From Maribacter sp. (GTDB lineage Bacteria > Bacteroidota > Bacteroidia > Flavobacteriales > Flavobacteriaceae), in NCBI GenBank assembly GCA_029287355.1, contig JARFRH010000061.1, positions 1 through 36,112 of the forward strand: DNA of 36,112 nt, read 5' to 3'. The position numbers and the translations under genes were made by a program. Numbering within the stretch: the stretch's first letter is position 1; every line of letters begins with the position of its first letter. The notes below the pieces were generated by a model, which saw nothing but the letters and a program-made list of their open reading frames with translations, had not been told where the DNA came from and searched no databases. Shown in pieces: positions 15,313 through 36,112 of this stretch.

Positions 15313-15852
15313 TCAGCCCTTGAAATGACCTACCGTCTTAAAAATGGTATCTAGAAAGACTTCTTTATCGAATGGCTTAATCATAACTTTGTTCATGCCA
15401 GCATGGAGGCATTTTTTGATATTCTCCGGATATCCATCGGCGGTTATCCCAATGATAGGAATATCTTTAATATTCTTGAACGGAAATTCCCTTATCAGTT
15501 TGGTAATCTGGTCTCCCGATATGTTGGGAAGATGCACATCCATAATGATGATATCATAGTTAGAACTCACTACTTCTTGCAGTACCAAGGCACCATCGTA
15601 AACAAGATCAATATGAAATCTGCCTGTACTCAACAAGCTTTTGAAGAGGGTAGTTTGCACCTGTAAATCATCTTCGACCAACAATAACCTAAGTTTTGGT
15701 CCGTCACTTATTTCCAACTTTCCGACACTGGTCTTGGGGCCTGCTACTTTGGTCCTTACCGAAGTAAGCAATTGATATTTCAACCCAAGATCAAAGTAAA
15801 ATTCGGAGCCTTGATCAATTTTTGACTTTATTTTGATCTTGCTGTCCATCAA
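15313..15852 (-). CDS. C-terminal part of hybrid histidine kinase: end of ATPase domain plus receiver domain
   Basis: This 179-residue segment continues the kinase at 15865-16854 in the same frame, separated only by TAG at 15867-15865. It begins inside the kinase ATPase domain (KIKSKIDQGSEFYFDL is the last strand of an HATPase domain), so it is not an independent protein by design. A linker follows, then a receiver domain from about residue 54 (LRLLLVEDD acidic pocket). The phospho-acceptor Asp105 is in IIIMDVHLPN, and the conserved Lys is in MIKPF near the end. The only nearby start is a TTG at 15852, four codons after the stop. If translated separately it would be a receiver with a useless kinase tail; if the stop is an error or suppressed, the full kinase is 513 residues. 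Confidence 0.88.
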   Translation of the reverse strand: MMDSKIKIKSKIDQGSEFYFDLGLKYQLLTSVRTKVAGPKTSVGKLEISDGPKLRLLLVEDDLQVQTTLFKSLLSTGRFHIDLVYDGALVLQEVVSSNYDIIIMDVHLPNISGDQITKLIREFPFKNIKDIPIIGITADGYPENIKKCLHAGMNKVMIKPFDKEVFLDTIFKTVGHFKG

Positions 15853-15864
15853 ATGTAGTAAGCC

Positions 15865-16854
15865 CTATGCAATAGCCAAACCCAAACCATTGCCAGCACT
15901 TTGGTTATTGGAATTCAATTGCTTAAAGATTTCAAAAATCACAGGAAAATCTTCAGGGCTGATTCCTATTCCAGTATCTTTTACTTGAAACCGTAAACTT
16001 ACGCGATTCGCCCTTTTCTGATTTAGCTTCACGTTTAGAGTCACTGTGCCTTTTTCAGTATATTTCAATGCATTGTCAAGTAAATTAGTCAATACCTGAA
16101 AAAGCCGAAGCCGATCCCCTTCCAGGATATCTGGAATGTCACCATCCCAAGAAGCGATGAAACTCAAGCCTTTTTCCTTCGCTTTTGCTTGATATGTAAA
16201 CTTGAGCAGTTCTAAAAAATCGACCAAATCGAACATTTTTGGAATAATGGTCAATCTTCCTGAATCAATCATGCTCATGCTAAGTATGTCTTCTAACAAC
16301 AACTTCAGATTGCTGTTCGAATCTTTTAGAAATCTCATCATTTGGCTTTGCTCCACATCCAATTTCGTGTCTTGCAATAAATCGGTAATCGCCATGATGC
16401 TGGTCAACGGATTTCTGAGTTCATGACTGAAATTTTGAATGAAACGATTCTTGAAGCGTTCCCTTTCTTCTAATTCAAGGTTCTTGATCACCGTAAGTTC
16501 CGTTTTGATTACCGATTCATTACGCGCTTGGGTTACCAACCGATATGAATTATAATGCTGTGTAAAATCGTGGATGATAAGAAGCAACCCCCCTTGCTTC
16601 TTGAGTATTTTAATATCTATTATGAAGAGACCTTCCTGTAATGAAAGATGTACACAATTTAAGTCAATTTCTTCCTCAGGACCTTCAAAAATTGCCCCCA
16701 AACTTTCAAAAAAAGGATGCAGCTCAAAAATGGAGCTTCCTGATTTCACATCAAAAAGAACTTGGTCACTTTCTTGAACAAATCCTTTTTGATCAACAAA
16801 AATGAACTGTGTGTTTTTATTGATATATAGTTCACGGTACTGCTCAAGCATCAT
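15865..16854 (-). CDS. Soluble hybrid histidine kinase, N-terminal part, interrupted by in-frame TAG
   Basis: A 329-residue product with no membrane segment. It has a PAS-like sensor region (about 1-105, FIFVDQKGFVQESD), then a HisKA domain with phospho-acceptor His144 in NFSHELRNPLT. The HATPase domain shows an N box (TNLLDNALKYT), G1 (DTGIGI), F box (FEIFKQL) and G2 (GNGLGLAIA). TAG then follows, where relatives usually have Lys or Arg before a GLLHLM-type helix; that helix is encoded in frame directly after the stop. Without the downstream part the ATPase fold lacks its last helix and strand. The ATG overlaps the GTPase gene end by 11 bases, so translation is coupled. The receiver domain follows in the same frame. 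Confidence 0.9.
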   Translation of the reverse strand: MMLEQYRELYINKNTQFIFVDQKGFVQESDQVLFDVKSGSSIFELHPFFESLGAIFEGPEEEIDLNCVHLSLQEGLFIIDIKILKKQGGLLLIIHDFTQHYNSYRLVTQARNESVIKTELTVIKNLELEERERFKNRFIQNFSHELRNPLTSIMAITDLLQDTKLDVEQSQMMRFLKDSNSNLKLLLEDILSMSMIDSGRLTIIPKMFDLVDFLELLKFTYQAKAKEKGLSFIASWDGDIPDILEGDRLRLFQVLTNLLDNALKYTEKGTVTLNVKLNQKRANRVSLRFQVKDTGIGISPEDFPVIFEIFKQLNSNNQSAGNGLGLAIA

Positions 16855-17347
16855 TGGCTAATTGGCTGGCCAGATTGGCGAACAGGTCGTTCACCGCATC
16901 GCCCGTTTTGGCACTTGTTAAAAAGTCTACCAAGATGCTATTTTCAACCAAAGTCGTTTTCAATTCATTAGCGTCGACCAAATCGATCTTATTGCCAACG
17001 ACCAATAAGGGCGTATTTGGAATTTTCGCGGAAACAATCTTTAAATCATCGTTCAGATGCTGAAAAGTAGAAGGCCTCGCGATGTCGAAAACAAAAACAA
17101 CACCATGTGTACCCAACAAATACGCTTTTCGGATTGATGCGATATCATCTGTACCCTCCAAATCCCATAAAATCATTGAAATAGTGTTGTCTGGAGAAAT
17201 CACTACCACCTTTTTTGTAATATGTACGCCAATGGTGACCTTATAATTATCGGAAAAAGTATCGGTAACGAATCTACGGATCAAGGAGGTTTTGCCAACA
17301 CCAAAATGACCAAGAACAACAATTTTCTTAGATTTTAGCATTGCCAA
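16844..17347 (-). CDS. Ras-superfamily small GTPase
   Basis: A 167-residue single-domain GTPase of the prokaryotic Ras/Rab/MglA-like type. All G motifs are visible: G1 GHFGVGKT (13-20), G2 Thr38 in KVTIG, G3 WDLEG (61-65), G4 NKID (119-122) and G5 TSAK (144-147). In G3 the usual DTAGQ is DLEGT, so the catalytic Gln of Ras is replaced by Thr and hydrolysis probably needs a partner. No membrane anchor or lipidation Cys is present at the C-terminus. The gene overlaps the upstream coiled-coil/longin gene by 20 bases and the downstream kinase by 11, implying a fixed-stoichiometry module. An in-frame Met at residue 3 is an alternative start. Confidence 0.9.
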   Translation of the reverse strand: MAMLKSKKIVVLGHFGVGKTSLIRRFVTDTFSDNYKVTIGVHITKKVVVISPDNTISMILWDLEGTDDIASIRKAYLLGTHGVVFVFDIARPSTFQHLNDDLKIVSAKIPNTPLLVVGNKIDLVDANELKTTLVENSILVDFLTSAKTGDAVNDLFANLASQLANDA

Positions 17348-18191
17348 AATATTTTCTCAATTCCTTTTCCAAACGTATTTTCCCCGCGGGTACAATACTA
17401 TTTTCGTTACTTGCGGTTTCGAAAATCAAATCTAGATTCATTGCCATATAACTATTATAGAAATCAAAAATGATATCCTGTAGTGCATTTTTAGACCGGG
17501 TTATGTAATTTCCAGAAATCACAACGGCAACAAAGTGAGTTGCAAAGCTTTGAATATGAATATGATATAACTCATATTCGATAAGTTCTAGATTTTGATT
17601 TTTTTGATTAAAGGCGTCCTCAACAAAAGATTTGATTGCAGTCAGCATTCCTGAGACCATTTCTTCGTCCATAGTTTGTGATTTGGCATAACTGGCCTTT
17701 AGAATACCCGAGTCTTTTTCGATAAGCAACACTTGTTCGATTTTGGTAGCTGCCAAATCACGCAGCATCAACCCCTCCTCATTGACCCCCGTTACAAAAG
17801 ACCGAAATTTTCTTTTCCACCGCTTCAAAAATCCTAACTGATCGTCTATTTTTTCAGAGAGCAGCTTAATTTCTTGTGCCACATACTTCTTCACCATTTT
17901 ACCTAAAATTGGGTAAATGGCATCTACAACTTCGTCTTTGCTGTTTTTGATTTCTTCCTTTAAAGTAGCTGTAATAACAGGACCCAATGTTGTAGGAATG
18001 CTGGCTTTGAATTCATCGATCTGCTGTTCGATAATTGGATCAACTCTCTCTGATAGTTTATTACGCTCGTTGAGCGTTTGTTCTAGTACCTCGATACGGG
18101 CTGAAATGCGTTGCTCGAACTCGTGCTCATCGGCAAAGAGAATGTCCTTGAGAATCTCAAGCTTGTCTTTTTCATCCATTTTAGGATACAT
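17328..18191 (-). CDS. Coiled-coil protein with C-terminal Roadblock/longin-like region
   Basis: A 287-residue soluble protein. The N-terminal 95 residues are charged and helical (ILKDILFADEHEFEQRISAR). The middle VVDAIYPILGKMVKKYVAQEI and the following basic WKRKFRSF resemble the N-terminal module that precedes OmpA domains in some cyanobacterial and proteobacterial proteins, although no OmpA domain is present here. About 145-255 looks like a Roadblock/longin-type domain: VEQVLLIEKDSGILKASY in pattern terms (here KIEQVLLIEKDSGIL), then MVSGMLTAIKSFVEDAF and FVAVVISGN. Such domains commonly bind or activate small GTPases, and the next gene is one, overlapping by 20 bases. A partner or GAP role is inference. 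A Met at residue 5 is an alternative start. Confidence 0.75.
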   Translation of the reverse strand: MYPKMDEKDKLEILKDILFADEHEFEQRISARIEVLEQTLNERNKLSERVDPIIEQQIDEFKASIPTTLGPVITATLKEEIKNSKDEVVDAIYPILGKMVKKYVAQEIKLLSEKIDDQLGFLKRWKRKFRSFVTGVNEEGLMLRDLAATKIEQVLLIEKDSGILKASYAKSQTMDEEMVSGMLTAIKSFVEDAFNQKNQNLELIEYELYHIHIQSFATHFVAVVISGNYITRSKNALQDIIFDFYNSYMAMNLDLIFETASNENSIVPAGKIRLEKELRKYFGNAKI

Positions 18192-18199
18192 CGCGTGTT

Positions 18200-18559
18200 C
18201 TATTTTGCAGCTATTTTTTCACCTAGATCCACCAATAACTTACCTAGCATTTTCTTATTTACCTTATCGGTTTCGATGGCATCGATTTTCTCTGAAAGAT
18301 TATGCTCTAATTCGGTAATACGAATATTGACATCTGTAGATACGTTGTCGAGTGTTGTAGTTAAGTCGGTGCGAATCTCTTCTATTAGATCTTCTAATAC
18401 CTTCTTTTTATCAAGTATATCTTTTTTTAGTGCCTCGAACTCCGTGTCGTAAGTTTGAATGGTTTCACCAAAAATCAGATTCTTGATGATATCGATCTTA
18501 GAGGCCGAACTCTCTATTTTATCCTCTAATTTGAACATAGGCTTGTTGTTTTTGGTCAT
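18200..18559 (-). CDS. Short coiled-coil protein
   Basis: A 119-residue protein, almost entirely charged amphipathic helix with heptad-like spacing (ALKKDILDKKKVLEDLIEEI, ITELEHNLSEKIDAIETDKV), so a coiled coil. No signal peptide or membrane segment. KIDIIKNLIFGETIQTYDTE near 21-40 resembles KLEILKDILFADEHEFEQRI in the next gene, suggesting the two share an N-terminal module. It is the first gene of the GTPase operon, with eight bases to the next gene. No known family is recognised; it may be a scaffold or targeting subunit. A second Met (residue 8) is an alternative start. Confidence 0.75.
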   Translation of the reverse strand: MTKNNKPMFKLEDKIESSASKIDIIKNLIFGETIQTYDTEFEALKKDILDKKKVLEDLIEEIRTDLTTTLDNVSTDVNIRITELEHNLSEKIDAIETDKVNKKMLGKLLVDLGEKIAAK

Positions 18560-18897: not shown

Positions 18898-21465
18898 ATG
18901 AGATTGTTCATGCTATTTTTGGGTCTTATTTTTTCTTTAAGCGCTTGTAGTACCCTTGGCCTTGCAGGTAAGAAAAACCCTGTTGCAACCCAAAGCACAA
19001 AATTATCCGACAAAGAAAAATCCTTCTCTGAGCTGATTCCCAAAGATGCTATTTCACAAGAAGGACTGTTCAATGTGCACCAAGTTGGTGAGAAATACTT
19101 CTTTGAAATTCCCGATAGTCTGCTGAATCGTGAAATCTTAGTGGTTACGCGGTTTATAAAAACACCTTCAGGTGCACGAAACTACGGTGGTGAGAAAATA
19201 GCTGAGAATACGATTGTTTTTGAAAAAGGGCCAACGCACAATATTTTTCTACGTATAGCGACCCTCGTAAGTGCCGCCAACGAAGACGACGCAATTTCCA
19301 AAGCCGTCAATAATTCGAATATCACGCCTATTCTCGAAGCCTTCGAAATAAAGGCTAGTAATAAAAAGAAAAACGCTCACTTGATAGAAGTGACGAACTT
19401 CTTGAACAGTGAAAACCCTTTGTTAGCCCTCAGTAATCAGCAGAAAGATGCCTATCGCCTTTTGGGTATCGAAAAAGACAAATCGTACATCAACGAAATC
19501 AACTCATTTCCCTTAAACACTGAAATTAAGACTGTCAAAACGTATAAGGCCAAATCGAGTAAGGAAAAACGCAAGAAGCAATTACCGGCAGCGGTTCTGG
19601 CTGGTGTGGTTACCTTGGAAATCAACAATTCATTTATTCTGCTTCCCAAAGAACCGATGCAAAAACGATATTTCGATGCTCGTGTCGGGTATTTCGCAAG
19701 TTCGTATTTAGAGTACGGCGATGACCAACAGAAGGTCGACAAAAACACCTACATCCACCGATGGCGATTGGAAGTGAAACCAGAAGATATCGACAAATGG
19801 AAACGAGGTGAGTTGGTTGAGCCTAAAAAACCTATTATTTATTATATCGACCCTGCAACTCCAAAGAAATGGAGGCCTTATCTGATACAAGGTATAAGTG
19901 ATTGGCAAATAGCTTTTGAACAAGCCGGGTTCAAAAATGCCATTGTTGGCATGGAATGGCCTGAGAACGATCAGACCATGAGTCTTGAAGATTCTCGTTT
20001 CTCGGTACTCCGTTATTTCGCTTCTCCTTCCAAAAATGCGTATGGCCCTAATATTGTTGATCCCCGTAGTGGCGAAATTTTAGAAAGCCACATTGGCTGG
20101 TATCACAACCTGCTGAATTTACTCCACAGCTGGTATATGGTTCAAGCAGGGGCCGTAGATGAAAGAGCACAGCAAATGGAATTCGATACTGAACTTATGG
20201 GGCAATTAGTTCGCTTTGTAAGCTCTCATGAAGTGGGCCATACTTTGGGGCTTCGTCATAATATGGGTGCAAGTTTCGCAACACCAACGGAAAAGTTGAG
20301 AGATGCCGAATGGCTTTCAAAAAACGGACATACCAGTTCGATAATGGACTATGCTCGTTTCAACTATGTAGCACAACCTGAAGATAACATTCCCGTAGAA
20401 AATTTGATGCCCCGTATTGGTGATTATGACAAATGGGCCATACAATGGGGATATTCTAGATTTCCGCAAGAATTAGAGGCTATAGAAGAGAAAGAGCTAT
20501 TAAGTCAAATGGTCGTCGATAGTGTTGGGAACAATCCCAGACTGTGGTTTGGTGGTGAAGGTCGCGATTTTGACCCAAGGTCTCAAACGGAAGACCTGGG
20601 TGACAATTCTATGGAAGCTAGTATGTATGGCATTCTCAACCTGCAGCGTATTGCACCTTGTATCAAAGAATGGGTAAAAGAAAATGAAAGTGACGATTAT
20701 GCCAACTTGGATCAAATCTATAAAGACCTCATCAATCAATACAGTGATTATATCTTTCACGTTTCCAAAAATATCGGGGGTATTTACGTGACGCCCAAAA
20801 CCATGGGTGAAGACGGAGAAGTGTATCGCCCAGTCCCTAAACAGACTCAAAAACAAGCTTTGGCCTTTCTGAACACCTATATCTTTAAAGAACCTAAGTG
20901 GTTGATGCGCAATGAAATTTTAAACGCCATACGCTCACCTCAATCAAAAGAAAGTGTAACGAAAACCATGGAAAGTGTTATGGTCAATTTATTAGGGGGA
21001 AGTAGGATAAGCCGAATGACCTTTATTTCTGAACGCTATGTTGATGAAAATCCCTATCGCCCTGAAGAGTATATCGATGACCTCAATCAATTAGTTTGGG
21101 GAGATATGAATGTTTTTTATCAGACTAATGCCTATAGGCGTAAACTACAGAAGTCGTATGTATCTAACATGATAGCACTATATAAACCTGATGTTACCGA
21201 AGGTCTTGTCGAGGGGCTATTGGCAAAACTTTCTAAGGGATATACTTCTAATACCGATGTACGATCTTTAGCCTTAGATAATCTGCTGACCCTTCAGGGG
21301 AAAATCAAAAGAACGCTACCTGTAATGACAGATAGGCTTACGATTGCCCATTTGAACTACCTGAAACGAGAAATCGAAGCTGTGGTAGGTGAAACGGATG
21401 ATGTCGATCCTTTGTTCATTCCTTTCAGCAAAGAAATTTCGATTAAAGAGGATAGCAAAGAATAG
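18898..21465 (+). CDS. Zinc-dependent metalloprotease lipoprotein (DUF5117/DUF4953 type)
   Basis: An 855-residue secreted lipoprotein: the N-terminal helix ends in the lipobox LSAC with Cys17. Residues 80-250 fit the DUF5118/DUF5117 part (GEKYFFEIPDSLLNREILVV, VVTLEINNSFILLP). The catalytic part carries the extended zinc motif HEVGHTLGLRH with His444, Glu445, His448 and His454, of the metzincin type. A Met-turn-like SSIMDYARFNYV follows about 35 residues later. Bacteroidota encode several such proteins, and their substrates are largely unknown. Its stop touches the stop of the convergent Kelch gene with no base between. No promoter matching consensus is evident upstream. Confidence 0.92.
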   Translation: MRLFMLFLGLIFSLSACSTLGLAGKKNPVATQSTKLSDKEKSFSELIPKDAISQEGLFNVHQVGEKYFFEIPDSLLNREILVVTRFIKTPSGARNYGGEKIAENTIVFEKGPTHNIFLRIATLVSAANEDDAISKAVNNSNITPILEAFEIKASNKKKNAHLIEVTNFLNSENPLLALSNQQKDAYRLLGIEKDKSYINEINSFPLNTEIKTVKTYKAKSSKEKRKKQLPAAVLAGVVTLEINNSFILLPKEPMQKRYFDARVGYFASSYLEYGDDQQKVDKNTYIHRWRLEVKPEDIDKWKRGELVEPKKPIIYYIDPATPKKWRPYLIQGISDWQIAFEQAGFKNAIVGMEWPENDQTMSLEDSRFSVLRYFASPSKNAYGPNIVDPRSGEILESHIGWYHNLLNLLHSWYMVQAGAVDERAQQMEFDTELMGQLVRFVSSHEVGHTLGLRHNMGASFATPTEKLRDAEWLSKNGHTSSIMDYARFNYVAQPEDNIPVENLMPRIGDYDKWAIQWGYSRFPQELEAIEEKELLSQMVVDSVGNNPRLWFGGEGRDFDPRSQTEDLGDNSMEASMYGILNLQRIAPCIKEWVKENESDDYANLDQIYKDLINQYSDYIFHVSKNIGGIYVTPKTMGEDGEVYRPVPKQTQKQALAFLNTYIFKEPKWLMRNEILNAIRSPQSKESVTKTMESVMVNLLGGSRISRMTFISERYVDENPYRPEEYIDDLNQLVWGDMNVFYQTNAYRRKLQKSYVSNMIALYKPDVTEGLVEGLLAKLSKGYTSNTDVRSLALDNLLTLQGKIKRTLPVMTDRLTIAHLNYLKREIEAVVGETDDVDPLFIPFSKEISIKEDSKE

Positions 21466-23744: not shown

Positions 23745-24407
23745 CTAAATCATTCTTCCATCCAGTAAGTTGATCGTTCGCTTGCCGTATTCGGCGTTTT
23801 TTTCGGAGTGTGTTACCTGAATGATAGTAACACCCTCACTATTCAGTTGTTTGAACAGCTCCATGATATCTTCTCCTTGTTTAGAATTTAGGTTTCCCGT
23901 TGGCTCATCGGCCAAAATCAATTTTGGCTTGCTGATCAATGCTCTTGCGACACCTACCAATTGTTGTTGTCCACCGCTCAATTGCGCGGGGAATAGATCT
24001 TTCTTCCCAACGATATTGAAACGATCCAACATATCGGCGACCATGGCCTTTCGTTCCGAACCTGAAATTTTTTTATAAAGTAAAGGCATTTCCAGGTTTT
24101 CGTAGACCGTCAATTCATCGATCAAATGATAGGCCTGAAAGACAAACCCGATATACTGTTTGTACAAATTAGCTCGGTGTTTTTCTCTCAGTTGATGAAC
24201 GGGTTCGTCCAAAAAATTATATTCCCCTTCATCGAAGGTATCGAGCATGCCCATCACATTTAGCAGCGTGGATTTACCAGAACCTGATGGGCCCATGATG
24301 GAAATGAACTCTCCTTCTTCGACTTCAAGATTGATATCTTTTAGAAGAAAGACACGCTGCCCTCCTTGTTGTACCCATTTGAATATATTATTTAATTCTA
24401 AAAGCAT
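23745..24407 (-). CDS. ABC transporter ATP-binding protein (MacB/LolD type)
   Basis: A 220-residue nucleotide-binding subunit. Walker A is GPSGSGKST (about 39-47), the Q-loop is VFQAYHL, the ABC signature is LSGGQQQLVGVARAL, Walker B is LILADEPTGNLNS, and the switch His is in QVTHSE. The sequence type is that of MacB/LolD/FtsE-like ATPases, which act with FtsX-fold permeases and work mechanically on periplasmic partners rather than by classical transport. In the signature motif the usual QRVAIARA is changed to QLVGVARA. It is the last gene of the permease cluster, 24 bases after a permease relic, and is the only ATPase in the cluster within the window. Confidence 0.94.
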   Translation of the reverse strand: MLLELNNIFKWVQQGGQRVFLLKDINLEVEEGEFISIMGPSGSGKSTLLNVMGMLDTFDEGEYNFLDEPVHQLREKHRANLYKQYIGFVFQAYHLIDELTVYENLEMPLLYKKISGSERKAMVADMLDRFNIVGKKDLFPAQLSGGQQQLVGVARALISKPKLILADEPTGNLNSKQGEDIMELFKQLNSEGVTIIQVTHSEKNAEYGKRTINLLDGRMI

Positions 24408-24431
24408 AATTTTTTGTTTTGTTATTTTAAT

Positions 24432-24921
24432 TCATTCCTCCTTTAATGCCTCAGCGGCGGCTTTAGTAAGCACCAAGGTGTTCAGTTCGGTCAACGCGGT
24501 CTTGGGGTCGCCCACAAGTAAATTCAAACCGAAGAATTCAAAAAAGGTGGTGTCGGCAAAGGTCACCTTGAGTTCTTTCGTATTGGTACCTGTACCACTT
24601 TTTCTAATAAGGGCGCTCCCACGATCCCTAAATCTTACCGTAGACTCCACTTGAGAAAAATCTCTTTGCATTGTCGCTGCCATAGGCGCTGCTGATTCGG
24701 AAGCCTCAATTTCGGCCCCCTCCAAATTTAATATCGGTATCAATTCGATAAACTCGGTCAGCATCGGCGAACATTTGGTCAAAGCTTAGCTCGTCATAGA
24801 TATATAAAGTAATGAGCAAACCTCCGGCCATATCGATGGCGAGGCCGAAAGTGTTGAGAAAGGTAAAAAAGGGTTGCTTTTTTAGGCTTCTCCAGGCAAT
24901 TTTTAAATGATTTTTAAACAT
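24432..24921 (-). pseudogene. Truncated, frameshifted MacB-like permease relic
   Basis: The N-terminus (MFKNHLKIAWRSLKKQPFFT from 24921) is nearly identical to the intact permease starting at 34749. After DIKFGG the reading frame shifts: the relic has ten bases where the intact copy has nine (around 24714-24723), so the first frame ends GGRN-stop. The other frame continues GAEIEASESAAPMAATMQRD, matching GAEIRAAEAAAPMASAMQRD of the intact copy. After TKAAAE it jumps to ALKEE and stop, where the intact copy continues for over 600 residues. ALKEE resembles the extreme C-terminus of a sister permease (ALKDE), so a large internal deletion is likely. It also carries Asp where the copies have Gly (GLAIDMAGG). 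Confidence 0.85.
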
Positions 24922-24947
24922 GACGAGTGTTTTTGATTGATGTTATT

Positions 24948-27347
24948 TTATTCCGTACGCAAACTATTAACCGGGTTCGAATTTGCAGCCTTTATGGCCT
25001 GAAAGCTGACGGTAAGAATGGTAATCGCCAAAGCTCCCACAACGGCCAATACGAAAATCCACCACTCGAGAATGACCCGATACGGGTAATCTTGCAACCA
25101 GCCGTTCATGACATAGTAGGAAATAGGAATTGCGATAAAACAAGATATAATGACCAACTTTAAAAAGTCTTTGGAAAGCATTCTCCAAACATTAAAGACC
25201 GATGCGCCCAAGACCTTGCGCACCCCGATTTCTTTGGTACGCTGTTCCGCTACGAATGAGGTAAGGCCAAACAGGCCTAGACAACTTATCAGTATAGCCA
25301 AGGCCGTAAAAATTCCTGATAAGGTTCCGATCCGTTCCTCCGAAGCAAATTTTTCTCCGTATTCTGCGTCAACAAATTCATATTCGAAGGGTATGTCTGG
25401 AAAGTGCTCTTTAAAAACCCTCTCGATTACCGCTATATTTTGACTGGCACTCTGTTTAGGATTCAACCGAAGGTTATAATAACTCGAATTATCAAATCGA
25501 TCAAAAACATACAGCCCCTGTTTTACCGGTTCATAGGGCGATTGTGCAATCATATCTTGCACCACGCCAATGATTTTTAAGGGAGGGCTTGGATCTTCTT
25601 CATCATCGTCTTTTAAGAATTTACCAACCGGATTTTCCATCCCTAAATACTTTTTGGCGGTTTCATTGATAAGAATCGCCATCGAATCAGATGCAAAATC
25701 CCTGGAAAAATCCCTTCCTTCAACGATTTTGAGGTTCAGTGACTTTGCATATTCCGGGGAGACTTCCGTCCACGCCAAATCTTCTTGGAAACCTTCCGGT
25801 TTTCCCTCCCAGGTATACCCCCCTCGATTCGACCAAATTCTCGTGGTCGGGCTACTGGATGATGACATTTCGACAACGGCATTCGTATTCAAAAATTCAC
25901 TTCGCATCAAATCATACTTGCCATTGAAGTCTTGACTAAATGTTGGCACCTGTATTAATCCTTCCTTGTCATATCCAACGGGTCTGTTCTTGGCATGGTT
26001 GATCTGTTGCATGACGATGACGGTACCAATGATAAACGCCACTGAAACCGTAAATTGGAGCACGACCAATATTTTCCTTGGCAACCCTGCATATTTTCCG
26101 GCCTTAAACGTTCCTTTTAAGACGTCGACCGGTCGAAACGAGGAAAGATACAATGCCGGATAACTGCCTGCCACCAAGGCCGTAAACAAAATAAACAGCA
26201 ATGAACTCAACCAAAAAACACCACTGGCCCAAGGAAAGAATATCTCTTTCTTTGATAAATCGTTGAAGCCATTTAAGGAGATAAGGACTATTACGACAGC
26301 TATGAAAAAGGAAAATAACACGACTAAAAAAGATTCGCTCAAAAACTGGTTGATTAACTGATTCCTTTGCGAGCCTATCGATTTCCGTATACCGACTTCT
26401 TTGGCCCGTTTTTCCGATCTCGCTGTACTTAGGTTCATAAAATTGATACAGGCTAAAAGCAATACAAAGCCGCCGATAATGCCAAAAAGCCACACATATT
26501 TTATTCTGCCACCTGTCTGTTTTCCATTCTCAAAATTGCCCCGCAAATACCATTCTTTCATGGGGAAAAGGAAAATCTGCGGGTTAAATTCCGCGGTATC
26601 CTCATTCAAATCTTTCTTGACATTGTGAATCGTTTGGCTTACTTTTTCCATATCCCCATTGTCCTGAAGTTCTACGAACATTTGAAAGGAGTTGTTGCCC
26701 CATTGGTCTTCAGCCTCATTGACCCATTCCCTTGACGCAAGGTATTGTTTCCATGGAATGATATATTTCGTATCGTTAAAAGTGTTGTTTACGGGAATGT
26801 CCTTATAAACAGCAGTAACCATCAAATCATATTGGTTACTCACTTTTACGACTTTTCCTATGGGATCTAGGTCACCAAATAAGGCCCCGGCAGTATCTTC
26901 AGAAAGCATAATCGAATTCACCTCCCTAAGCCCATCTTTCTCCCCTTTGATGATTTGCAGATCTAACAGTTCAGGGGCTTCACTTTGCATGAAATTTCCG
27001 GAACGGGAAAGATTGGTCTCATTGTATTTCAGATAGAGATCACTCGTCCATGACGACATGATAAGGTGCTTGAAATTATCGCCATAACCATCTCGTAAGG
27101 CTTTTTCCAAAGGTCTCGGTATCGCGGGACCCGTACCTGTGCGCCCATTGAAGGTTTGGGATTGATAGACCTGTGCGATTTTCTCCTGGTTCTCAAAATG
27201 ACTATTATGCGAAAGTTCATCTACAACCCAAAGCCCAATAAGTAAAGTTACGGCCATACCTAAAGCAAGTCCCCCAATATTAATGGCAGTATAGCCTTTG
27301 TTCTTTATCAGATTTCTCCAGGCAATTTTAAGATAGTTTTTAAACAT
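24948..27347 (-). CDS. MacB-like ABC transporter permease (FtsX family), copy 1
   Basis: A 799-residue permease of two FtsX halves: N-terminal helix (about 20-42), a large periplasmic MacB core domain (43-270), three helices with the cytoplasmic loop RSEKRAKEVGIRKSIGS, then a second helix-periplasmic-helix unit. The second loop is AEQRTKEIGVRKVLGAS, and the protein ends NPVNSLRTE. The start at MFKNYLKIAWRNL is chosen because all sister genes begin there; an ATG 33 bases upstream adds an unmatched extension. Such permeases move lipoproteins, peptides or antibiotics, or transmit signals across the membrane; the substrate is unknown here. It precedes the relic and the ATPase, with 26 bases to the relic's start. 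Confidence 0.92.
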   Translation of the reverse strand: MFKNYLKIAWRNLIKNKGYTAINIGGLALGMAVTLLIGLWVVDELSHNSHFENQEKIAQVYQSQTFNGRTGTGPAIPRPLEKALRDGYGDNFKHLIMSSWTSDLYLKYNETNLSRSGNFMQSEAPELLDLQIIKGEKDGLREVNSIMLSEDTAGALFGDLDPIGKVVKVSNQYDLMVTAVYKDIPVNNTFNDTKYIIPWKQYLASREWVNEAEDQWGNNSFQMFVELQDNGDMEKVSQTIHNVKKDLNEDTAEFNPQIFLFPMKEWYLRGNFENGKQTGGRIKYVWLFGIIGGFVLLLACINFMNLSTARSEKRAKEVGIRKSIGSQRNQLINQFLSESFLVVLFSFFIAVVIVLISLNGFNDLSKKEIFFPWASGVFWLSSLLFILFTALVAGSYPALYLSSFRPVDVLKGTFKAGKYAGLPRKILVVLQFTVSVAFIIGTVIVMQQINHAKNRPVGYDKEGLIQVPTFSQDFNGKYDLMRSEFLNTNAVVEMSSSSSPTTRIWSNRGGYTWEGKPEGFQEDLAWTEVSPEYAKSLNLKIVEGRDFSRDFASDSMAILINETAKKYLGMENPVGKFLKDDDEEDPSPPLKIIGVVQDMIAQSPYEPVKQGLYVFDRFDNSSYYNLRLNPKQSASQNIAVIERVFKEHFPDIPFEYEFVDAEYGEKFASEERIGTLSGIFTALAILISCLGLFGLTSFVAEQRTKEIGVRKVLGASVFNVWRMLSKDFLKLVIISCFIAIPISYYVMNGWLQDYPYRVILEWWIFVLAVVGALAITILTVSFQAIKAANSNPVNSLRTE

Positions 27348-27426
27348 GATTGATCGATTTGATTGATTCCTAATTTTCAAAATTAAATCCCTCCCCTATT
27401 AAAGAGTCACTTTATGCTAAAAAGTT

Positions 27427-29841
27427 TCACTCTGTTCGTAAACTTTTTACAGGATTGGTCATTGATGCTTTGATAGATTGAAAACTTACGGTAACCAAGG
27501 CGATTCCGACAACAATAATTCCCACCAAAACAAAGGTCCACCAACTGATTCCAACACTATAGGCAAAACCTTGTAGCCACTGATCCATGACCCACCAAGC
27601 GATTGGGAAAGCGAACAATGTGGCGATCAACACTAATTTGATAAAGTCCTTCGAAATCATCCCTACAATGTCGGTTATGGTCGCGCCCATTACTTTTCGA
27701 ATGCCTATTTCGGCCTTCCTTCTAGCTACGGTCAAGGTGGCCAATCCGAATAATCCCATACATGCTATGAATATGGCAAGAATCGAAGCGATGTTGACAA
27801 CACTTTTTGACCGCAATTCATTCTGATATTGTGCAGACAAAGCTTCATCTAAAAAAGAATATTCGAATTCTTGCCCAGGATTTGTTTTTTCCCAGATGTT
27901 CTTCAAGGTCGCAATACTAGCTGTCATATTTTGCGCCTCAAGGCGCACTGAAACTCTTGGCTGGGTCGTGTGTTGTAATTCAACATTTTCAGTGTGCTTA
28001 AAAATTGGATCTAGATTAATGGTCAACAATAGCGGTTCTATATTGTTGTTCAAAGACTCGAAATTAAAGTCTTTCATCACCCCAAGAATTTTGATGTCGA
28101 ATTTGTCGTAAGGTTTACCAATCGGATTTTCAAGACCAAACCGCTTCACAAAGGTCTCGTTCACTAAGACTCCGTTTTGAGCGTCACTGGCATTCCCTAT
28201 AATAAAATCCCTTCCTTCGGTTATCTGAATATTGTGTGTTTGAAGAAACCCTGGATTCACAATGTTCACTGCAAATTCACGGTAGGTGTTTTTCTTATCG
28301 GTAAAACCTGCATTGACCCAACCATTCTCTGCAAAACTGAGGATCGACCAAGAAGCTTCGGCTACCTCGGGCTGCTTTTTGAGTTCGGCAACATACAATT
28401 CGGCAAAGGCATCAGCCTCTTCTCCTGACATATTGGTTGGCACCACCACTATGGCGTCTTTTTGATAGCCTAGGTCTTTGCTGACCAAAAAGTCTATTTG
28501 TCGACCGATCATCAAGGTACCAATGAGCATAACGATTGAAGCCACGAATTGTGTTATGACCAAGCTTTTCCCGAATAACCCCATCGAAGCACCTTTGACC
28601 ATTCTACTTCTCAGTACTTCAATAGGATTGTATTTCGAAAGCACTATGGAAGGATAGATTCCTGCAATCAGCGCAATAAATACCACCAAACCTAAGGTGA
28701 TAAGCCAAAAGCTTAGGTCAAAATCGATATAAAGCAGCTTACCCGTAAGGGAGTTAAAGGTTTCTTGAAACAAAAGGGCGAGAAATATACCAAGCGATAC
28801 CGCCATAAGGGTAATCAACAAAGCCTCACCCCAAAACTGGTGAACAATTTGCTTACGGAACGCCCCTAATGCTTTTCGCACACCCACTTCGGTCGCCCTT
28901 GAAAAAGAACGCCCAACGGCCAAGGTCACAAAGTTGATACACGCCAACAACAATATTAAAAACCCGATTGTGCCCATTACATAGGCATATTTCGGATTTG
29001 AAATGGGCTCGAGACCCGGTGGTAAGGAGGGGTCAAGGTGTATTTCGGTCATGGGTTGTAAATGCAGAAAAAACGTGCCTTCTTCATAATTGTCACCTAA
29101 ATATTGTTTGATGATCGTTGGGAATTTAGCTTCTAATTGTGCAGCAGACTGGTTGGGTTTTAACAACAGATATGATTCGACTACAACATTGAACCAACTT
29201 TCTCTTGCTCTTTCACTAAAAAACAAGGCTTCATTTTCAAGAGAAACCAACATGTCGAATTGAATGCTGGATTCTTGAGGAGGATTGGCCGCAATCGCAG
29301 CAACTTCAAAAAATTTGATTTCTTCATCAAACTCCACAGAAAGTGATTTGCCAATTGGATCTTCTTCTCCGAAATATTTTTTTGCCGAAGATTCTGAAAG
29401 GATAATCGAATTTGCACTAGAAAATGGGGCTGAAGTATTGCCTTCTATAAGCTCAAAATCAAATATTTGAAAAAAGGAAGGGTCAACTCCCCTAATTTCT
29501 TCGTTGAATTCCGAGTCACTTTTTTTAACAAGCGCATTAAAGCGATAAACCCGGCTACCATCTTCGATTTCTGGATAATTGTTTTTTAGCACATTCACCA
29601 TCGATATAGGTGTCGTTGTATTTACGAATTCCTCTTTAGGGCCGTAATTTTCATACTGCCATACCCTATAGATATTATCTGAATTCGAATGAAACCGATC
29701 ATAACTAAATTCATTTTTGACATACAGCGCTATCAAGATAAAGCAACATACTCCTACCGCTAATCCGGATATGTTTATTAGTGTATACCCTCGATTTTTA
29801 AAGAGGTTTCGCCAAGCGATTTTTAGATAGTTTTTAATCAT
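27427..29841 (-). CDS. MacB-like ABC transporter permease (FtsX family), copy 2
   Basis: An 804-residue permease with the double-FtsX architecture, beginning MIKNYLKIAWRNLFKNRGYT. It is the most divergent of the array: its cytoplasmic loops are GRSFSRATEVGVRKALGAF and ARRKAEIGIRKVMGATITD, and its periplasmic domains share little obvious sequence with the sisters, so it may bind a different partner. The C-terminus NPVKSLRTE is conserved. It is separated from copy 1 by 79 bases, the largest gap among the intact internal copies. Confidence 0.92.
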   Translation of the reverse strand: MIKNYLKIAWRNLFKNRGYTLINISGLAVGVCCFILIALYVKNEFSYDRFHSNSDNIYRVWQYENYGPKEEFVNTTTPISMVNVLKNNYPEIEDGSRVYRFNALVKKSDSEFNEEIRGVDPSFFQIFDFELIEGNTSAPFSSANSIILSESSAKKYFGEEDPIGKSLSVEFDEEIKFFEVAAIAANPPQESSIQFDMLVSLENEALFFSERARESWFNVVVESYLLLKPNQSAAQLEAKFPTIIKQYLGDNYEEGTFFLHLQPMTEIHLDPSLPPGLEPISNPKYAYVMGTIGFLILLLACINFVTLAVGRSFSRATEVGVRKALGAFRKQIVHQFWGEALLITLMAVSLGIFLALLFQETFNSLTGKLLYIDFDLSFWLITLGLVVFIALIAGIYPSIVLSKYNPIEVLRSRMVKGASMGLFGKSLVITQFVASIVMLIGTLMIGRQIDFLVSKDLGYQKDAIVVVPTNMSGEEADAFAELYVAELKKQPEVAEASWSILSFAENGWVNAGFTDKKNTYREFAVNIVNPGFLQTHNIQITEGRDFIIGNASDAQNGVLVNETFVKRFGLENPIGKPYDKFDIKILGVMKDFNFESLNNNIEPLLLTINLDPIFKHTENVELQHTTQPRVSVRLEAQNMTASIATLKNIWEKTNPGQEFEYSFLDEALSAQYQNELRSKSVVNIASILAIFIACMGLFGLATLTVARRKAEIGIRKVMGATITDIVGMISKDFIKLVLIATLFAFPIAWWVMDQWLQGFAYSVGISWWTFVLVGIIVVGIALVTVSFQSIKASMTNPVKSLRTE

Positions 29842-29884
29842 GATTTTTCGATTTATTGATTTGATGTCCTGATAGCTATCGGAA

Positions 29885-32284
29885 TTATTCGTCTTTCAGT
29901 GCGCTTACCGGATTCAATGTCGCGGCCCTAAAACTCTTCCAACCAATGGTGCCAAAGGCAATCAATAGCGTAATCAAAGCTGTTATAGTAAATAGCCCCC
30001 ATTGTATTTCGATTCGATAGGCAAATCCTTCCAGCCATTTATTCATTAGGTAATACCCAAGGGGGAAAGCGATGAAAAAAGAAAGAAACACCAGCTTTAA
30101 AAAGTCTTTTGAAAGCATGGCCACAATCTCGGAAACGCTAGATCCCAAAACCTTTCGGATACCAATTTCCTTGAACCGTTGTTCGGCCGTGAAAGTGACC
30201 AATCCGAAAAGTCCCAAACAGGCTACCAAAATGGTCAAGAGGGCGAAAACGTTTAGAAGGGTTCCCATTTTTTGTTCGTCGACATAGGTCTGTCGATACG
30301 ATTCATCTAATAGAGAGTAACCAAATGTTTCATCGGTATTGAAACGGTTCCAAAGTGTATTGGCATCTGATATCAGGCCGGCCATATCAGCAGATTTTGC
30401 CTTGATAATCAGTCCGCCAAAAGGTCTGTAAAACAAAAACAACGGGTCGATGGTCTGGTGTAAGGATTTGAAATGAAAATCTTTGATTACCCCCACTACG
30501 GTATGATCTCCGCTGCCGTCCGTTACTATTTTACCTATGGCGTTAGTGCCAAAACCTAAAACTTTTGCAGCGGTTTGGTTGATGATGACATTAGTGGAAT
30601 CGGTGCCGAACTCCTTTGAAAAATTTCGCCCTGCGACCAGCTCCATTCCCATGGTAGTTATGTAGTTTTCATCGATATTATAAACGGGCATGCGTCTATT
30701 AAACTCGCCATCGATATAGACTTGCGACATGTAATTATCCGTACTTCCTGCGGGAATGGAAGCAGCGTTCGTAATCGAAGCAACTTTAGGGTTCTTGAGC
30801 AGCTCATTTCTAAAGGCATCCCTATCGTTTCCAAGTAAATATGCCTCTCGGAGCACCAATAATTGGTCTCTATCATAACCGATATCCTTATTTTGGATAT
30901 ACTGCATTTGCTGGTTGACGACCAATGTCGCCAATATCAATCCGGCAGAAATGACAAACTGAAATATTACCAAGCCGCTGCGGAGGCCCTTATTTTTATT
31001 TCCTCCTAAGAACTTATTTTTCAATGCCGCTATTGGTTTGAAAGATGACAAAAAGAAAGCAGGATACCCTCCAGCCAAAAGGCTTATAAAAAGAGTCAAA
31101 AGCATTAGCGATACTAAAACGGTAGGCTGCCATAGAAAAGCGAGTTGTAATTCTTTCCCCGACAATTCATTGTAGAACGGAAGGGATACGAATACCATAC
31201 TAATCGCGAATACCATTGCCAATAGGGTGGCGATTAGGGATTCTGATAAAAATTGATAAAGCAACTGGTTTTTATTGGACCCCAAGACTTTACGAATGCC
31301 CACCTCTTTAGCTCGCTTCGCAGCAGTCGCTGTAGCGAGGTTCATAAAATTAATACACGCAATCAGCAACATAAAAAGGGCGATTGCACTAAAAATGTAG
31401 ACATACTTAATATCGCCACCCTGTTCTAAACGGCTATACGAGGAATTATCAGCGTATAAATGAATATCGGTCAACGGAAAAATGCGAAACCCTAATTGGT
31501 TTTCCTTGGTAAATTCTTCAAAGGGCACCCCCATTTCCTCCTGCATCTTAGACCCCATATACTTTTCTAGAATGTAGGGCAGCTTCGTTTCCAAATTTTT
31601 GGGTTCAGCACCTTCTTTGAGAAGTAAATAGGTATAGAAATCGCCTTTAAACCAAGAGTCGCTTTTGGCCTCATCAAGCCCCTTGATGGAGGCAAAAATA
31701 TCAAAGTGAAAGTGTGAGTTTTGAGGAACTTTATCAATAACACCAGTCACTCGAAAAGGTTGTTCTTCTCCCTCTATATAGAATAGTTTGCCGATAGCAT
31801 TCGTAGCGCCAAACAACTTTTCGGCTTCGGCTTTGGTGATTACCGCCGTATTTGGTTCTTGAAGTGGATTTCTAGCATCTCCTTCGATAATTGGAAGTGT
31901 GAATACATTGAAAAAATTATCATCTACAAAAGCGAAGCTGTCTTCACGATATGATTGATTTGCTACGATGATCTTCGGTGCTCCGATATTTCGGATGCGA
32001 GTTGCATCGAGCACTTCAGGGAATTCTTGTTTTAAGGTCTGCCCAACTGGGGCCATAACAGCGCCTTCCTTTATTTCTTCACCATTGACTTTTGCCCTGA
32101 AAACAACATTGACGATCTGATCAGCCTTTTCATTGTAGCGATCATAGCTTAGTTCATCGATTACAAAAAGCATAATAATCAAACATGAGGCTATGCCCAA
32201 GGCAAGACCCACGATGTTAATAGAAAAAATACCCTTGTTCTTTAGGATGTTCCGCCAAGCAATTTTTAGGTTGTTTTTGAACAT
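29885..32284 (-). CDS. MacB-like ABC transporter permease (FtsX family), copy 3
   Basis: A 799-residue permease starting MFKNNLKIAWRNILKNKGIF. Cytoplasmic loops are AAKRAKEVGIRKVLGSNKNQ and AEQRFKEIGIRKVLGSSVSE. The C-terminus is NPVSALKDE instead of the SLRTE of the other copies, which makes it the best match for the tail of the truncated relic. Two large periplasmic MacB-type domains lie at about 45-280 and 455-660. It is 43 bases upstream of copy 2 and 32 bases downstream of copy 4, consistent with one transcript. Confidence 0.92.
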   Translation of the reverse strand: MFKNNLKIAWRNILKNKGIFSINIVGLALGIASCLIIMLFVIDELSYDRYNEKADQIVNVVFRAKVNGEEIKEGAVMAPVGQTLKQEFPEVLDATRIRNIGAPKIIVANQSYREDSFAFVDDNFFNVFTLPIIEGDARNPLQEPNTAVITKAEAEKLFGATNAIGKLFYIEGEEQPFRVTGVIDKVPQNSHFHFDIFASIKGLDEAKSDSWFKGDFYTYLLLKEGAEPKNLETKLPYILEKYMGSKMQEEMGVPFEEFTKENQLGFRIFPLTDIHLYADNSSYSRLEQGGDIKYVYIFSAIALFMLLIACINFMNLATATAAKRAKEVGIRKVLGSNKNQLLYQFLSESLIATLLAMVFAISMVFVSLPFYNELSGKELQLAFLWQPTVLVSLMLLTLFISLLAGGYPAFFLSSFKPIAALKNKFLGGNKNKGLRSGLVIFQFVISAGLILATLVVNQQMQYIQNKDIGYDRDQLLVLREAYLLGNDRDAFRNELLKNPKVASITNAASIPAGSTDNYMSQVYIDGEFNRRMPVYNIDENYITTMGMELVAGRNFSKEFGTDSTNVIINQTAAKVLGFGTNAIGKIVTDGSGDHTVVGVIKDFHFKSLHQTIDPLFLFYRPFGGLIIKAKSADMAGLISDANTLWNRFNTDETFGYSLLDESYRQTYVDEQKMGTLLNVFALLTILVACLGLFGLVTFTAEQRFKEIGIRKVLGSSVSEIVAMLSKDFLKLVFLSFFIAFPLGYYLMNKWLEGFAYRIEIQWGLFTITALITLLIAFGTIGWKSFRAATLNPVSALKDE

Positions 32285-32316
32285 GATTCTCGTTTTCGAT
32301 GATTGATGTTATTCCT

Positions 32317-34749
32317 TCATTCTGTACGCAAACTTTTTATGGGATTCACTATCGCTGCTTTGATACTTTGATAACTTACAGTAATAATCGAGATGGCCAC
32401 AGCCAAAAAGGCGGCCAAAACAAAGATCCATATGCCAATCTCTATGCGATATGAAAAATCTTCAAGCCATTTATTCATGGCGAACCAGCCGATTGGCAAC
32501 GAAATAAGAATCGCGATACCTACCATTTTTAAAAAATCGGTGGTAAGACGATAGGTGATTTGTCCGATGCTGGCACCGAGAACCTTTCGTATTCCTATTT
32601 CCTTGGTGCGCTTTTGAGCGTTGAATGCAGCCAAGCCAAATAGACCTAGACAGGCAATCAAAATCGATAGAACTGTAAATACCATGAAAATTTTGCCCAA
32701 TCGTTGTTCGGCTTCGTAGGTTGTATTGAACGATTCGTCCATAAAGCGATAACTGAAGGGTTGGCCAGGAGCAAGTTTGTTCCACATCGCTTCAATAGCC
32801 CCAATAGTTTGTGAAAAATCATTGGCGCTCAATTTTACCGCCATGTTTTCGGAAGAGGGGTTCAAGAAAAGTCCGAGCGCTCCGATATTTTCCCTTAATG
32901 ATTCATAGTGAAAGTTTTTTACAACACCGATAACCTTGTAAAATTGGGGTCTTGACTGTTCAATATCTTGTGAAATCTGTGTTCCTATAACTTCTTTGGC
33001 ACTTAGCCCAAGAACGCTCAGGGTAGCCTCGTTTAGGATAACCGCCGTGGAATCAGTGGGATATTCCTTACTAAAGTTCCTTCCCGCAATCAGCTCCATA
33101 TTCAAGGTCGGAATATAATCATGGTCAACATCCCACGTTTGTATTTGAATGGCATTTTCTTGGGTCATTGCCCCTTCCTTAAAATAAGAGCTATTGGATC
33201 TTGCCGAAGGAGTTGGCAAGAAACTACTGATTGTGGCACTTTGAACTTGGCTTAAATTAAGGACTTCTTCTTTAAAGGCTTGCACTTGATTTCCAGCGGC
33301 AAAGGCATCATTTATCAGCAACACTTGGTCTTTGACAAAGCCAAGATCCTTATTTTGAATATACTTTAATTGTTGAAAAACGACTATCGTACTCACAATT
33401 AAAAAAACGGATATGGCGAATTGGAATACGACCAAACCATTTCGAATCCTTCCCGCCCCGACATTACTCTGATTTCCGCCTTTAAGTGTTTTTACGGGCA
33501 TGAACCGCGACATAAAAAATGCTGGGTAACTCCCAGAGAAAAGTCCTAGAAGTAGGGTTGCCATCAAAAGTATCAACCAGAAAAAGGGATTCGAAATTGG
33601 CAAGGAAACGGACTTTCCCGAAAGATCGTTAAAAAACGGAAGCGCGATGAGCGTAATAATTAGGGCCAGCAACAACGAGATGAAGGTGATCAAACCCGAT
33701 TCGGTCAAGAACTGTTGTATGAGGTCCCTCTTATTCGAGCCCAATGTTTTTCTAACACCCACTTCCTTTGCCCTTTTCAAGGAATGTGCCGTTGAAAGGT
33801 TCATAAAATTGACACTGGCAAGTACTATAAGAAAGAGGCCTATAAACGAAAGAATATAAACATTCTGAATGCTACTATTCGCACTCATCTCAGATTGACG
33901 ATTGGAATGTAAATGAATCGAGGTCAGTGCCATGGTGTGATACCTTAGGTAATTTCCTGATGCTTCAAAGGTCTCTTTTGTCATACCTGGAAAAAATTGC
34001 TGTGCCCAAGGAAGCATATACTGCTCCAACATGCCTTGTAACAATTCTTGAAACTTGGCTATATCAGCACCAGATATCAATTTGACGAACGTAAAGTAGT
34101 TTTGGCTTCCCCAATCATTCTCACGGGAATCTTCATAACCGGACATCGCCATAAAAACACTGTGGTCCCTCAACATAGAGTTTTTCGGCAAATCATCTAT
34201 TACCCCAGTTACCGTATAGGTATCTGTGTTGTTCAACAAAAGACTTTGCCCCAATGCATTTTGCACCCCAAAGTGCTTTTCAGCAGCCGTCTTGGTCATC
34301 ACCAAGGTGTTCGGCTCGGTCAAGGCGTTTTTTATATTGCCTACCAAGAGTTCGATTCCAAAAAAGTCAAAGAACGTGGAATCGACAAAGGTCACGTTGC
34401 GTTCTTTTGTGTTGGTCTCCGTACGGTTTTTTCTAATAAGTGCACTGCCCCGATTCCTGAATCGAATGGTCGATTCTACTTCCGAAAAATCCCTTTGCAT
34501 AGCGCTGGCCATAGGAGCAGCTGCCTCGGCAGCCCTTATTTCGGCGCCCCCAAATTTAATGTCGGTATCGATCCGGTAAATACGTTCCGCATCAACGAAC
34601 ATTTTATCGAAACTCAATTCGTCGTAGATGTACAAAGAAATTAATATTCCCCCGGCCATGCCGATGGCGAGTCCGAAGGTGTTCAGAAATGTAAAAAAGG
34701 GTTGCTTTTTTAGACTTCTCCAAGCGATTTTTATGTGGTTTTTGAACAT
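32317..34749 (-). CDS. MacB-like ABC transporter permease (FtsX family), copy 4
   Basis: An 810-residue permease starting MFKNHIKIAWRSLKKQPFFT; an ATG 30 bases upstream is rejected because sister genes all start at this motif. It is the closest relative of the truncated relic at 24432-24921. Loops are AHSLKRAKEVGVRKTLGSNK and AQKRTKEIGIRKVLGASIGQ, and the C-terminus is NPIKSLRTE. The periplasmic half contains GGAEIRAAEAAAPMASAMQR, shared only with the relic. The 269-base gap in front, with a palindrome, suggests that a promoter for copies 1-4 and the ATPase lies there. Confidence 0.92.
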   Translation of the reverse strand: MFKNHIKIAWRSLKKQPFFTFLNTFGLAIGMAGGILISLYIYDELSFDKMFVDAERIYRIDTDIKFGGAEIRAAEAAAPMASAMQRDFSEVESTIRFRNRGSALIRKNRTETNTKERNVTFVDSTFFDFFGIELLVGNIKNALTEPNTLVMTKTAAEKHFGVQNALGQSLLLNNTDTYTVTGVIDDLPKNSMLRDHSVFMAMSGYEDSRENDWGSQNYFTFVKLISGADIAKFQELLQGMLEQYMLPWAQQFFPGMTKETFEASGNYLRYHTMALTSIHLHSNRQSEMSANSSIQNVYILSFIGLFLIVLASVNFMNLSTAHSLKRAKEVGVRKTLGSNKRDLIQQFLTESGLITFISLLLALIITLIALPFFNDLSGKSVSLPISNPFFWLILLMATLLLGLFSGSYPAFFMSRFMPVKTLKGGNQSNVGAGRIRNGLVVFQFAISVFLIVSTIVVFQQLKYIQNKDLGFVKDQVLLINDAFAAGNQVQAFKEEVLNLSQVQSATISSFLPTPSARSNSSYFKEGAMTQENAIQIQTWDVDHDYIPTLNMELIAGRNFSKEYPTDSTAVILNEATLSVLGLSAKEVIGTQISQDIEQSRPQFYKVIGVVKNFHYESLRENIGALGLFLNPSSENMAVKLSANDFSQTIGAIEAMWNKLAPGQPFSYRFMDESFNTTYEAEQRLGKIFMVFTVLSILIACLGLFGLAAFNAQKRTKEIGIRKVLGASIGQITYRLTTDFLKMVGIAILISLPIGWFAMNKWLEDFSYRIEIGIWIFVLAAFLAVAISIITVSYQSIKAAIVNPIKSLRTE

Positions 34750-36045: not shown

Positions 36046-36112
36046 CTGTCTCTTATACACATCTGACGCTGCCGACGACCTGTAGAGGGGGTAGAGCTGG
36101 GGGGGGGGGGTG
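36046..36112. other. Nextera transposon end, adapter and poly-G: sequencing artefact
   Basis: 36046-36064 is exactly the 19-base Tn5 mosaic end CTGTCTCTTATACACATCT. It is followed by GACGCTGCCGACGA (36065-36078), the Nextera read adapter. The remaining bases are index-like and then low-complexity G (a run of ten G near 36101-36110), as from two-colour Illumina base calling past the fragment end. This is untrimmed library sequence, not genome, so the contig ends at about 36045. Confidence 0.98.

Follow-up and report, generated by a model that had tools for sequence, protein, structure and literature searches.

A Rup-type GTPase and its predicted Roadblock/longin-fold neighbor in a conserved flavobacterial four-gene operon

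A stretch of 36,112 nucleotides from Maribacter sp. (assembly GCA_029287355.1, contig JARFRH010000061.1; hereafter the window, meaning this whole stretch) encodes four tightly packed minus-strand genes, which we call A, B, C and D, and one of which, C, encodes a Ras-like GTPase. To which kind of system does this operon belong, which of its products could regulate the GTPase, and in which direction would a signal pass between the GTPase and the kinase encoded beside it? By gene content and motifs, the operon fits the neighborhood of the Group 1 Rup GTPases, a module type predicted from genomes in 2014, and the neighboring protein B has, by profile and structure comparison, a domain of the Roadblock/longin fold. 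We favor, with a probability of about 0.65, a reading in which the operon is the soluble flavobacterial form of the Group 1 Rup module, and in which a scaffold including B would set the state of the GTPase, and that state would in turn gate D through the N-terminal module of D.

In the portions of the 2014 survey drawn on here (Wuichet & Sogaard-Andersen 2014, PMC4316618), Group 1 Rup GTPases lack the Gln of the G3 motif and have three conserved neighbors. The first is a cytoplasmic coiled-coil protein. The second contains an unknown domain, and in many cases a membrane helix and OmpA come after it. The third, the output protein, is either a histidine kinase or a diguanylate cyclase/phosphodiesterase and has an invariant N-terminal Gln that might act in trans. 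The same portions give the G3 Asp as present in Rup and absent from MglA, and count 0 of 121 Rup genes as coupled to an MglB homolog. It has been proposed that Rup proteins are the closest prokaryotic kin of Rab, Ras, Rho and Ran (PMC4316618, PMC4915359), and longin domains have been argued to derive from MglB-like Roadblock domains (PMC3521125; both further sources are also used in part), which is what makes a bacterial Rab-like GTPase with a Roadblock/longin neighbor of interest. Among the matches listed in our literature search, which covered few subscription journals, we found neither experiments on Group 1 Rup nor a longin domain in it. An earlier reading of the DNA, the original prediction, had taken the operon for a system it did not recognize, and the fit to the 2014 neighborhood replaces that view. 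Relative to the parts of the 2014 description used here, the additions are the Roadblock/longin identity of the B domain, the short form of B, and a sigma-54 output at two distant loci.

A conserved four-gene operon

The open reading frames are separated by spacings of +8, -20 and -11, matching the near-touching arrangement that the original prediction described. The features are as follows, with protein lengths in amino acids (aa).

18200-18559, minus strand: gene A, a short hydrophilic protein of 119 aa, a probable coiled coil (open frame)
17328-18191, minus strand: gene B, 287 aa, a helical N-terminus followed by the predicted Roadblock/longin domain (open frame; alignment A1, 15 sequences)
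17406-17810, minus strand: predicted Roadblock/longin domain of B, residues 128-262 as modeled (hhalign, AlphaFold2, Foldseek, VIA-align)
16844-17347, minus strand: gene C, a Ras-like (Rup-type) GTPase of 167 aa from a TTG start, or 165 aa from the ATG at 17341 (Pfam Ras; alignment A3)
17288-17311, minus strand: P-loop GHFGVGKT of C (translation)
17150-17167, minus strand: switch II WDLEGT of C, with the Asp present and the Gln after Gly absent (translation)
15865-16854, minus strand: gene D, part 1, with the N-terminal module, HisKA and positions 1-80 of the 111 of HATPase_c; 329 aa, then TAG
16528-16530, minus strand: codon of D Gln109, an invariant residue
16423-16425, minus strand: codon of D His144, the predicted phospho-acceptor histidine, inside the HisKA match
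15865-15867, minus strand: in-frame TAG interrupting D
15313-15864, minus strand: gene D, part 2, with the end of the ATPase domain and a receiver domain; 183 aa (Response_reg, E 1.4e-19)

The product of gene A has no hydrophobic segment in a hydropathy scan and no match among curated Pfam models other than weak coiled-coil-type ones. Promoter-like sites were as common as in shuffled sequence (13 against a mean of 12.8), and terminator-like sites numbered 6, against 2.5 in shuffles.

B was found in 9 of 13 genomes of the same genus, in 3 of 22 others of the family and in 2 of 23 of the order, and a draw across the phylum found it in 14 of 395 genomes, the source genome included. Genes A, B, C and D lie in this order on a single strand at all 14 relatives that were fetched and at 80/80 loci of named genomes. 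The latter come from Maribacter, Muriicola, Cellulophaga, Kordia, Lacinutrix, Algibacter, Sinomicrobium and others, and are the best 80 of 462 loci encoding a B relative, that is, the closest ones and not the whole range. The two sets share 10 loci, leaving 84 distinct loci. Short frames were scored as present at the 80 loci: three D frames (281 aa in L052, 410 aa in L043 and, at a contig end, 391 aa in L060) and one GTPase of 79 aa, in L074. Some of the genes flanking the operon in the window are retained at 8/9 same-genus loci, and these genes are absent, save for three weak matches, at the five loci outside the genus. The surroundings thus change while A-B-C-D stay, which argues that the module keeps together. 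The four-gene operon is real and conserved, and the synteny anticipated by the original prediction is there. Two further approaches were set aside. In two other classes, alignment A4 as a query matched 183/195 and 168/197 genomes, mostly through OmpA, and is uninformative on B; the ratio of nonsynonymous to synonymous substitution (dN/dS) was unusable because dS was saturated in most comparisons.

The Roadblock/longin domain of protein B

The original prediction had placed a Roadblock/longin-like region at residues 145-255 of the 287-residue protein, a claim that an unrelated fold would have undone and that withstood both profile and structure comparison. A profile of residues 128-262 built from 90 sequences matched a profile made from 19 Roadblock domains found in the phylum, with an hhalign probability of 86.8% (E 4.3e-6, 80 columns). 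The real score of 36.6 compares with 18.3 for the best of 200 column-shuffled versions, and the reversed profile and a profile of gene A gave 0.8% and 0.4%. Alignment A5 began with 120 rows, repeats included; removing rows of fewer than 90 residues and those sharing 93% identity or more with a retained row left 89.

An AlphaFold2 model of the domain from the 90 sequences, with a predicted local distance difference test score (pLDDT) of 67.3 and a predicted template modeling score (pTM) of 0.59, has the order helix, two strands, helix, three strands, helix. A model of full-length B from 15 sequences was poor (pLDDT 53.9, pTM 0.42) and was left out of the fold search. Against solved structures, Foldseek returned 19 rows at E <= 0.001 for the domain, with query TM-scores of 0.45-0.58; 18 are from Rag, Ragulator, GATOR1 or FLCN complexes and one is from AP-2. 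We count among the former 5x6v, which we take to be a complex of the Rag/Ragulator type although its title is silent on that. MglB comes next, at E 1.7e-3. With VIA-align, TRAPP subunits and an AP-3 chain rank first, including the TRAPP chain 7u05_D (Z 11.4, 107 residues, 2.8 A) and 3pr6 (Z 11.3, 105 residues, 2.4 A), and MglB 6izw_C aligns at Z 9.0 over 98 residues and 3.0 A. The best sequence match of the domain profile in the Protein Data Bank is the TRAPP protein BET5, whose E of 0.046 is suggestive only. Within Pfam, the B of the window has sub-threshold matches to Sybindin and longin, and the best match among 19 B members is Fuz_longin_1, at E 0.0012. The first helix of the model has a pLDDT below 50, yet it is included in the profile alignment; given this low score, the domain may follow either the Roadblock order, with the helix first, or the longin order, with the helices last.

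Taken together, these comparisons indicate that residues 128-262 of B have a Roadblock/longin fold. Such a fold next to a Ras-like GTPase makes B the obvious regulator or scaffold, although the shared fold itself shows no function. A domain of this kind in a fixed neighbor fills the gap left by the survey's zero of 121 and names a candidate regulator.

Distant relatives give B another form. At 14 loci from the phylum draw, the window's own excluded, B is short in two, and in 12 it is a protein of about 590-640 aa ending in OmpA. A hydrophobic helix precedes OmpA in 12/12 of the fused proteins, with a 19-residue hydropathy of 1.88-2.64, and the corresponding value is 1.07-1.71 in the seven short B proteins examined (7/7). 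OmpA in frame with B occurs at none of the 80 named loci and none of the 14 relatives. The short form thus accounts for 87 distinct loci, the window's own included. In named strains of Maribacter, Cellulophaga, Kordia and Lacinutrix, the whole module looks soluble. For the link to the envelope raised by the original prediction, the OmpA-fused B of distant relatives speaks only indirectly, and the lineage of the window itself is without the OmpA arm.

The GTPase, its output protein and the direction of signaling

C matches the Pfam Ras model at E 5.9e-31, as a Ras-like GTPase was expected to, and Arf far more weakly, at 1.3e-15. Its best solved relatives, among the best 60 of 912 matches, are Ypt6, Rab6 and Ypt7/Rab7. 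Asp62, in switch II, is invariant in 15/15 sequences of alignment A3, and because this Asp is retained, C is by its motifs a Rup-type and not an MglA-type GTPase. The switch-II Gln is absent from the GTPases of 74 of the 80 named loci (the motif was not found in one), of 14/14 relatives and of all 11 distant loci with a GTPase. At 79 of the 80 loci the third P-loop position is Phe, the remaining one having no recognized motif. This position is presumably the place of Gly12 in Ras, and the Phe hints at an unusual hydrolysis mechanism.

For D, the original prediction of a soluble PAS-hybrid kinase held in part. The protein does appear soluble, with a peak 19-residue hydropathy of 1.54 in a crude scan (among 23 D proteins, one, in L026, peaks at 2.11), whereas Pfam PAS models gave no match to the N-terminal region at E <= 1, and the TAG that stops the frame after 329 codons had been overlooked. 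A profile of this N-terminal region was also tried as a relative of Roadblock or of the B domain and matched neither (1.0% and 0.5%). Beyond the TAG, 183 further codons run on in frame. All 14 fetched relatives have an uninterrupted D frame of 500-514 aa, and among 102 other kinase rows the column of the stop holds K in 89, R in 7, S in 3, N in 2 and Q in 1, with zero stops. Identity to the nearest relative is 71.6% both upstream and downstream, which suggests either a recent stop or a fault in the assembly. If it is no such fault, the TAG probably leaves this genome with a kinase that is inactive or uncoupled.

Two residues of D stand out. Gln109, just after the N-terminal region, is invariant in 23/23 D proteins and is Q in 102 of 103 kinase rows, with a gap in L052; the 103 rows represent 93 distinct loci, 92 of which have the Gln. 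His144, from its place in HisKA the predicted phospho-acceptor, is likewise H in 102/103 rows, with a gap in the remaining one.

What follows the N-terminal module varies. Across the loci it is a kinase, a hybrid kinase, a hybrid kinase with an Hpt domain or, at two loci, a sigma-54 activator. At the distant loci, A is present in 13/14, the GTPase in 11/14 and a D-like kinase in 8/14. The nine OmpA loci with a GTPase nearby comprise five that are colinear and four in which A-B and C-D point apart or are split between strands, suggesting that the module falls into two blocks. At L132 (10002-11753) and L133 (4898-6679), the gene after the GTPase encodes a sigma-54 activator with PAS, AAA+ and Fis-type helix-turn-helix domains; its residues 1-135 match the N-terminal module of D with an hhalign probability of 51% (E 1.5e-4) and carry a Gln at the corresponding position. 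That the module and its Gln recur while the following part changes favors a direction from GTPase to output, and a sigma-54 activator, not being a kinase, could not phosphorylate anything upstream, which favors an output role for this slot. Also at distant loci, the kinase of L130 (4940-6850) has an Hpt domain after its receiver (Pfam Hpt, E 2.2e-6), and a 587-codon frame occupies the output slot of L131.

From these pieces, the soluble Group 1 Rup module that we favor might work as follows. A and B would form a scaffold on which the GTPase is bound by the Roadblock/longin domains of B, and these domains would control or sense which nucleotide it carries. Once loaded with GTP, C would dock on the N-terminal module of D, where Gln109 may complete the GTPase active site in trans and aid hydrolysis, as proposed in 2014 in the parts of that survey used here, and the state of the GTPase would thereby switch the output of D on or off. 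Where B bears OmpA, it could report on the cell wall. A coupling of GTPase state to a phosphorelay, as the original prediction had supposed, is plausible.

Several results pull the other way. A and B occur without a GTPase within 17 kb at 3 of the 14 distant loci. Curated Pfam Roadblock/longin models all miss the cut-off on B, confidence in the model of its domain is moderate, and a wrong-family decoy, the profile of C, reached 14% over 14 columns. The 51% of the sigma-54 comparison comes from two sequences only, and a profile of six OmpA-class kinases alone gave 0.2%, no match. Finally, five of the 80 named-locus GTPases carry the switch-II Gln (WDLEGQ), so that its absence is not strict. L136, L137 and L141 have A and an OmpA-fused B with neither a GTPase nor a D-like kinase recognizable in the 17 kb fetched.

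The same genes could be read in the opposite direction, with D as the sensor and the GTPase as the output whose state the kinase alters, as has been posited for the conservons of Streptomyces. In both cases a kinase, a Roadblock-type protein and a GTPase are encoded next to one another, and the conservon analogy, with the GTPase posited as output, is drawn in the 2014 survey itself, in the portions used here (PMC4316618). We nonetheless consider this direction unlikely: D has its own receiver in this lineage and hence its own output, a hydropathy scan found no membrane segment in the window's D, and the D slot is filled by a sigma-54 activator at the two distant loci. It is similarly improbable that the operon is simply decaying in this genome, with D inactivated by the TAG at 15865-15867 and the rest a relic. 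The stop itself and the short frames elsewhere (D in L052 and L043, the GTPase in L074) would accord with decay, whereas, the stop aside, the frames of A, B and C and of the two parts of D remain open, the identity of D is equal on the two sides of the stop, and an assembly error is possible in a draft of 353 contigs.

An ordinary MglA/MglB switch for polarity or gliding, with extra genes attached, is far less probable still. The B domain does have the fold of MglB; against this, C carries the switch-II Asp, where TVPGQ stands in the two MglA-like genes that a motif scan picked up at 20 Roadblock loci, and the best solved relatives of C, among the best 60 matches, are Rabs. The Pfam Roadblock model PF03259 has zero matches in the source genome at E <= 0.001, and recognized motility proteins are absent among the 20 other window proteins scanned. 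For the polarity or gliding role that the original prediction offered as an example, we found nothing pointing there.

A broader interpretation, which we advance tentatively as a possibility somewhat short of even odds, is that the module is a functioning bacterial counterpart of the eukaryotic Rab-longin pair, comprising a Rup GTPase, a cryptic Roadblock/longin regulator and an exchangeable effector that supplies a Gln in trans; as part of the same proposal, OmpA would tie the regulator to peptidoglycan in some lineages, whereas here it would be free in the cytoplasm. If these readings are true, GTPase switching would be tied to two-component and sigma-54 output in one operon, the pairing of a Rab-type GTPase with a longin-type domain would be available in a compact, directly testable bacterial operon, and there would be a bearing on the origin of Rab-longin pairs.

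Elsewhere in the window, a DUF5118/DUF5117/DUF4953 metzincin-type gene (18898-21465, plus strand) is divergent to the operon and adjoins it at 5/9 same-genus loci. Farther along (23745-36062, minus strand), an ATP-binding cassette ATPase gene (23745-24407) lies beside four tandem full-length MacB_PCD/FtsX permease-type genes and one further such gene, an unusually long run for related permeases.

Comparison with known systems

The actinobacterial conservon (CvnA-D) likewise consists of four genes, including those for a histidine kinase, a Roadblock-type protein, a GTPase and a further protein. As far as the 2014 survey is drawn on here (PMC4316618), it combines an MglA-family GTPase with a membrane-spanning kinase that has a C-terminal LPxR motif, in contrast to the Rup-type GTPase and soluble hybrid kinase of the present operon. 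MglA/MglB shares with the operon a GTPase beside a neighbor of Roadblock fold, and differs in that C has the switch-II Asp and that B has a long helical N-terminus and a domain recognizable only by profile and fold comparison. Among eukaryotic systems in which a Rab or Rag GTPase meets longin or Roadblock partners (TRAPP, Ragulator, Mon1-Ccz1, Fuzzy-Inturned), the likeness is that C is nearest to Rabs and that the B domain aligns with chains of these complexes; the difference is that we are dealing here with a bacterial operon with a two-component or sigma-54 output.

The closest comparison is with the Group 1 Rup neighborhood, as described in the parts of the 2014 survey used here. Relative to it, the window has a B without membrane helix or OmpA and, as its D, a soluble hybrid kinase that is interrupted in this genome. 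Shared with it are a Rup-type GTPase mostly without the switch-II Gln, an unknown-domain neighbor and an output protein whose N-terminal region has an invariant Gln, and A would be the coiled-coil neighbor if, as is probable, it is a coiled coil; membership is further indicated by the homology of the window's short B to the OmpA-fused proteins of 12 of the 14 distant loci.

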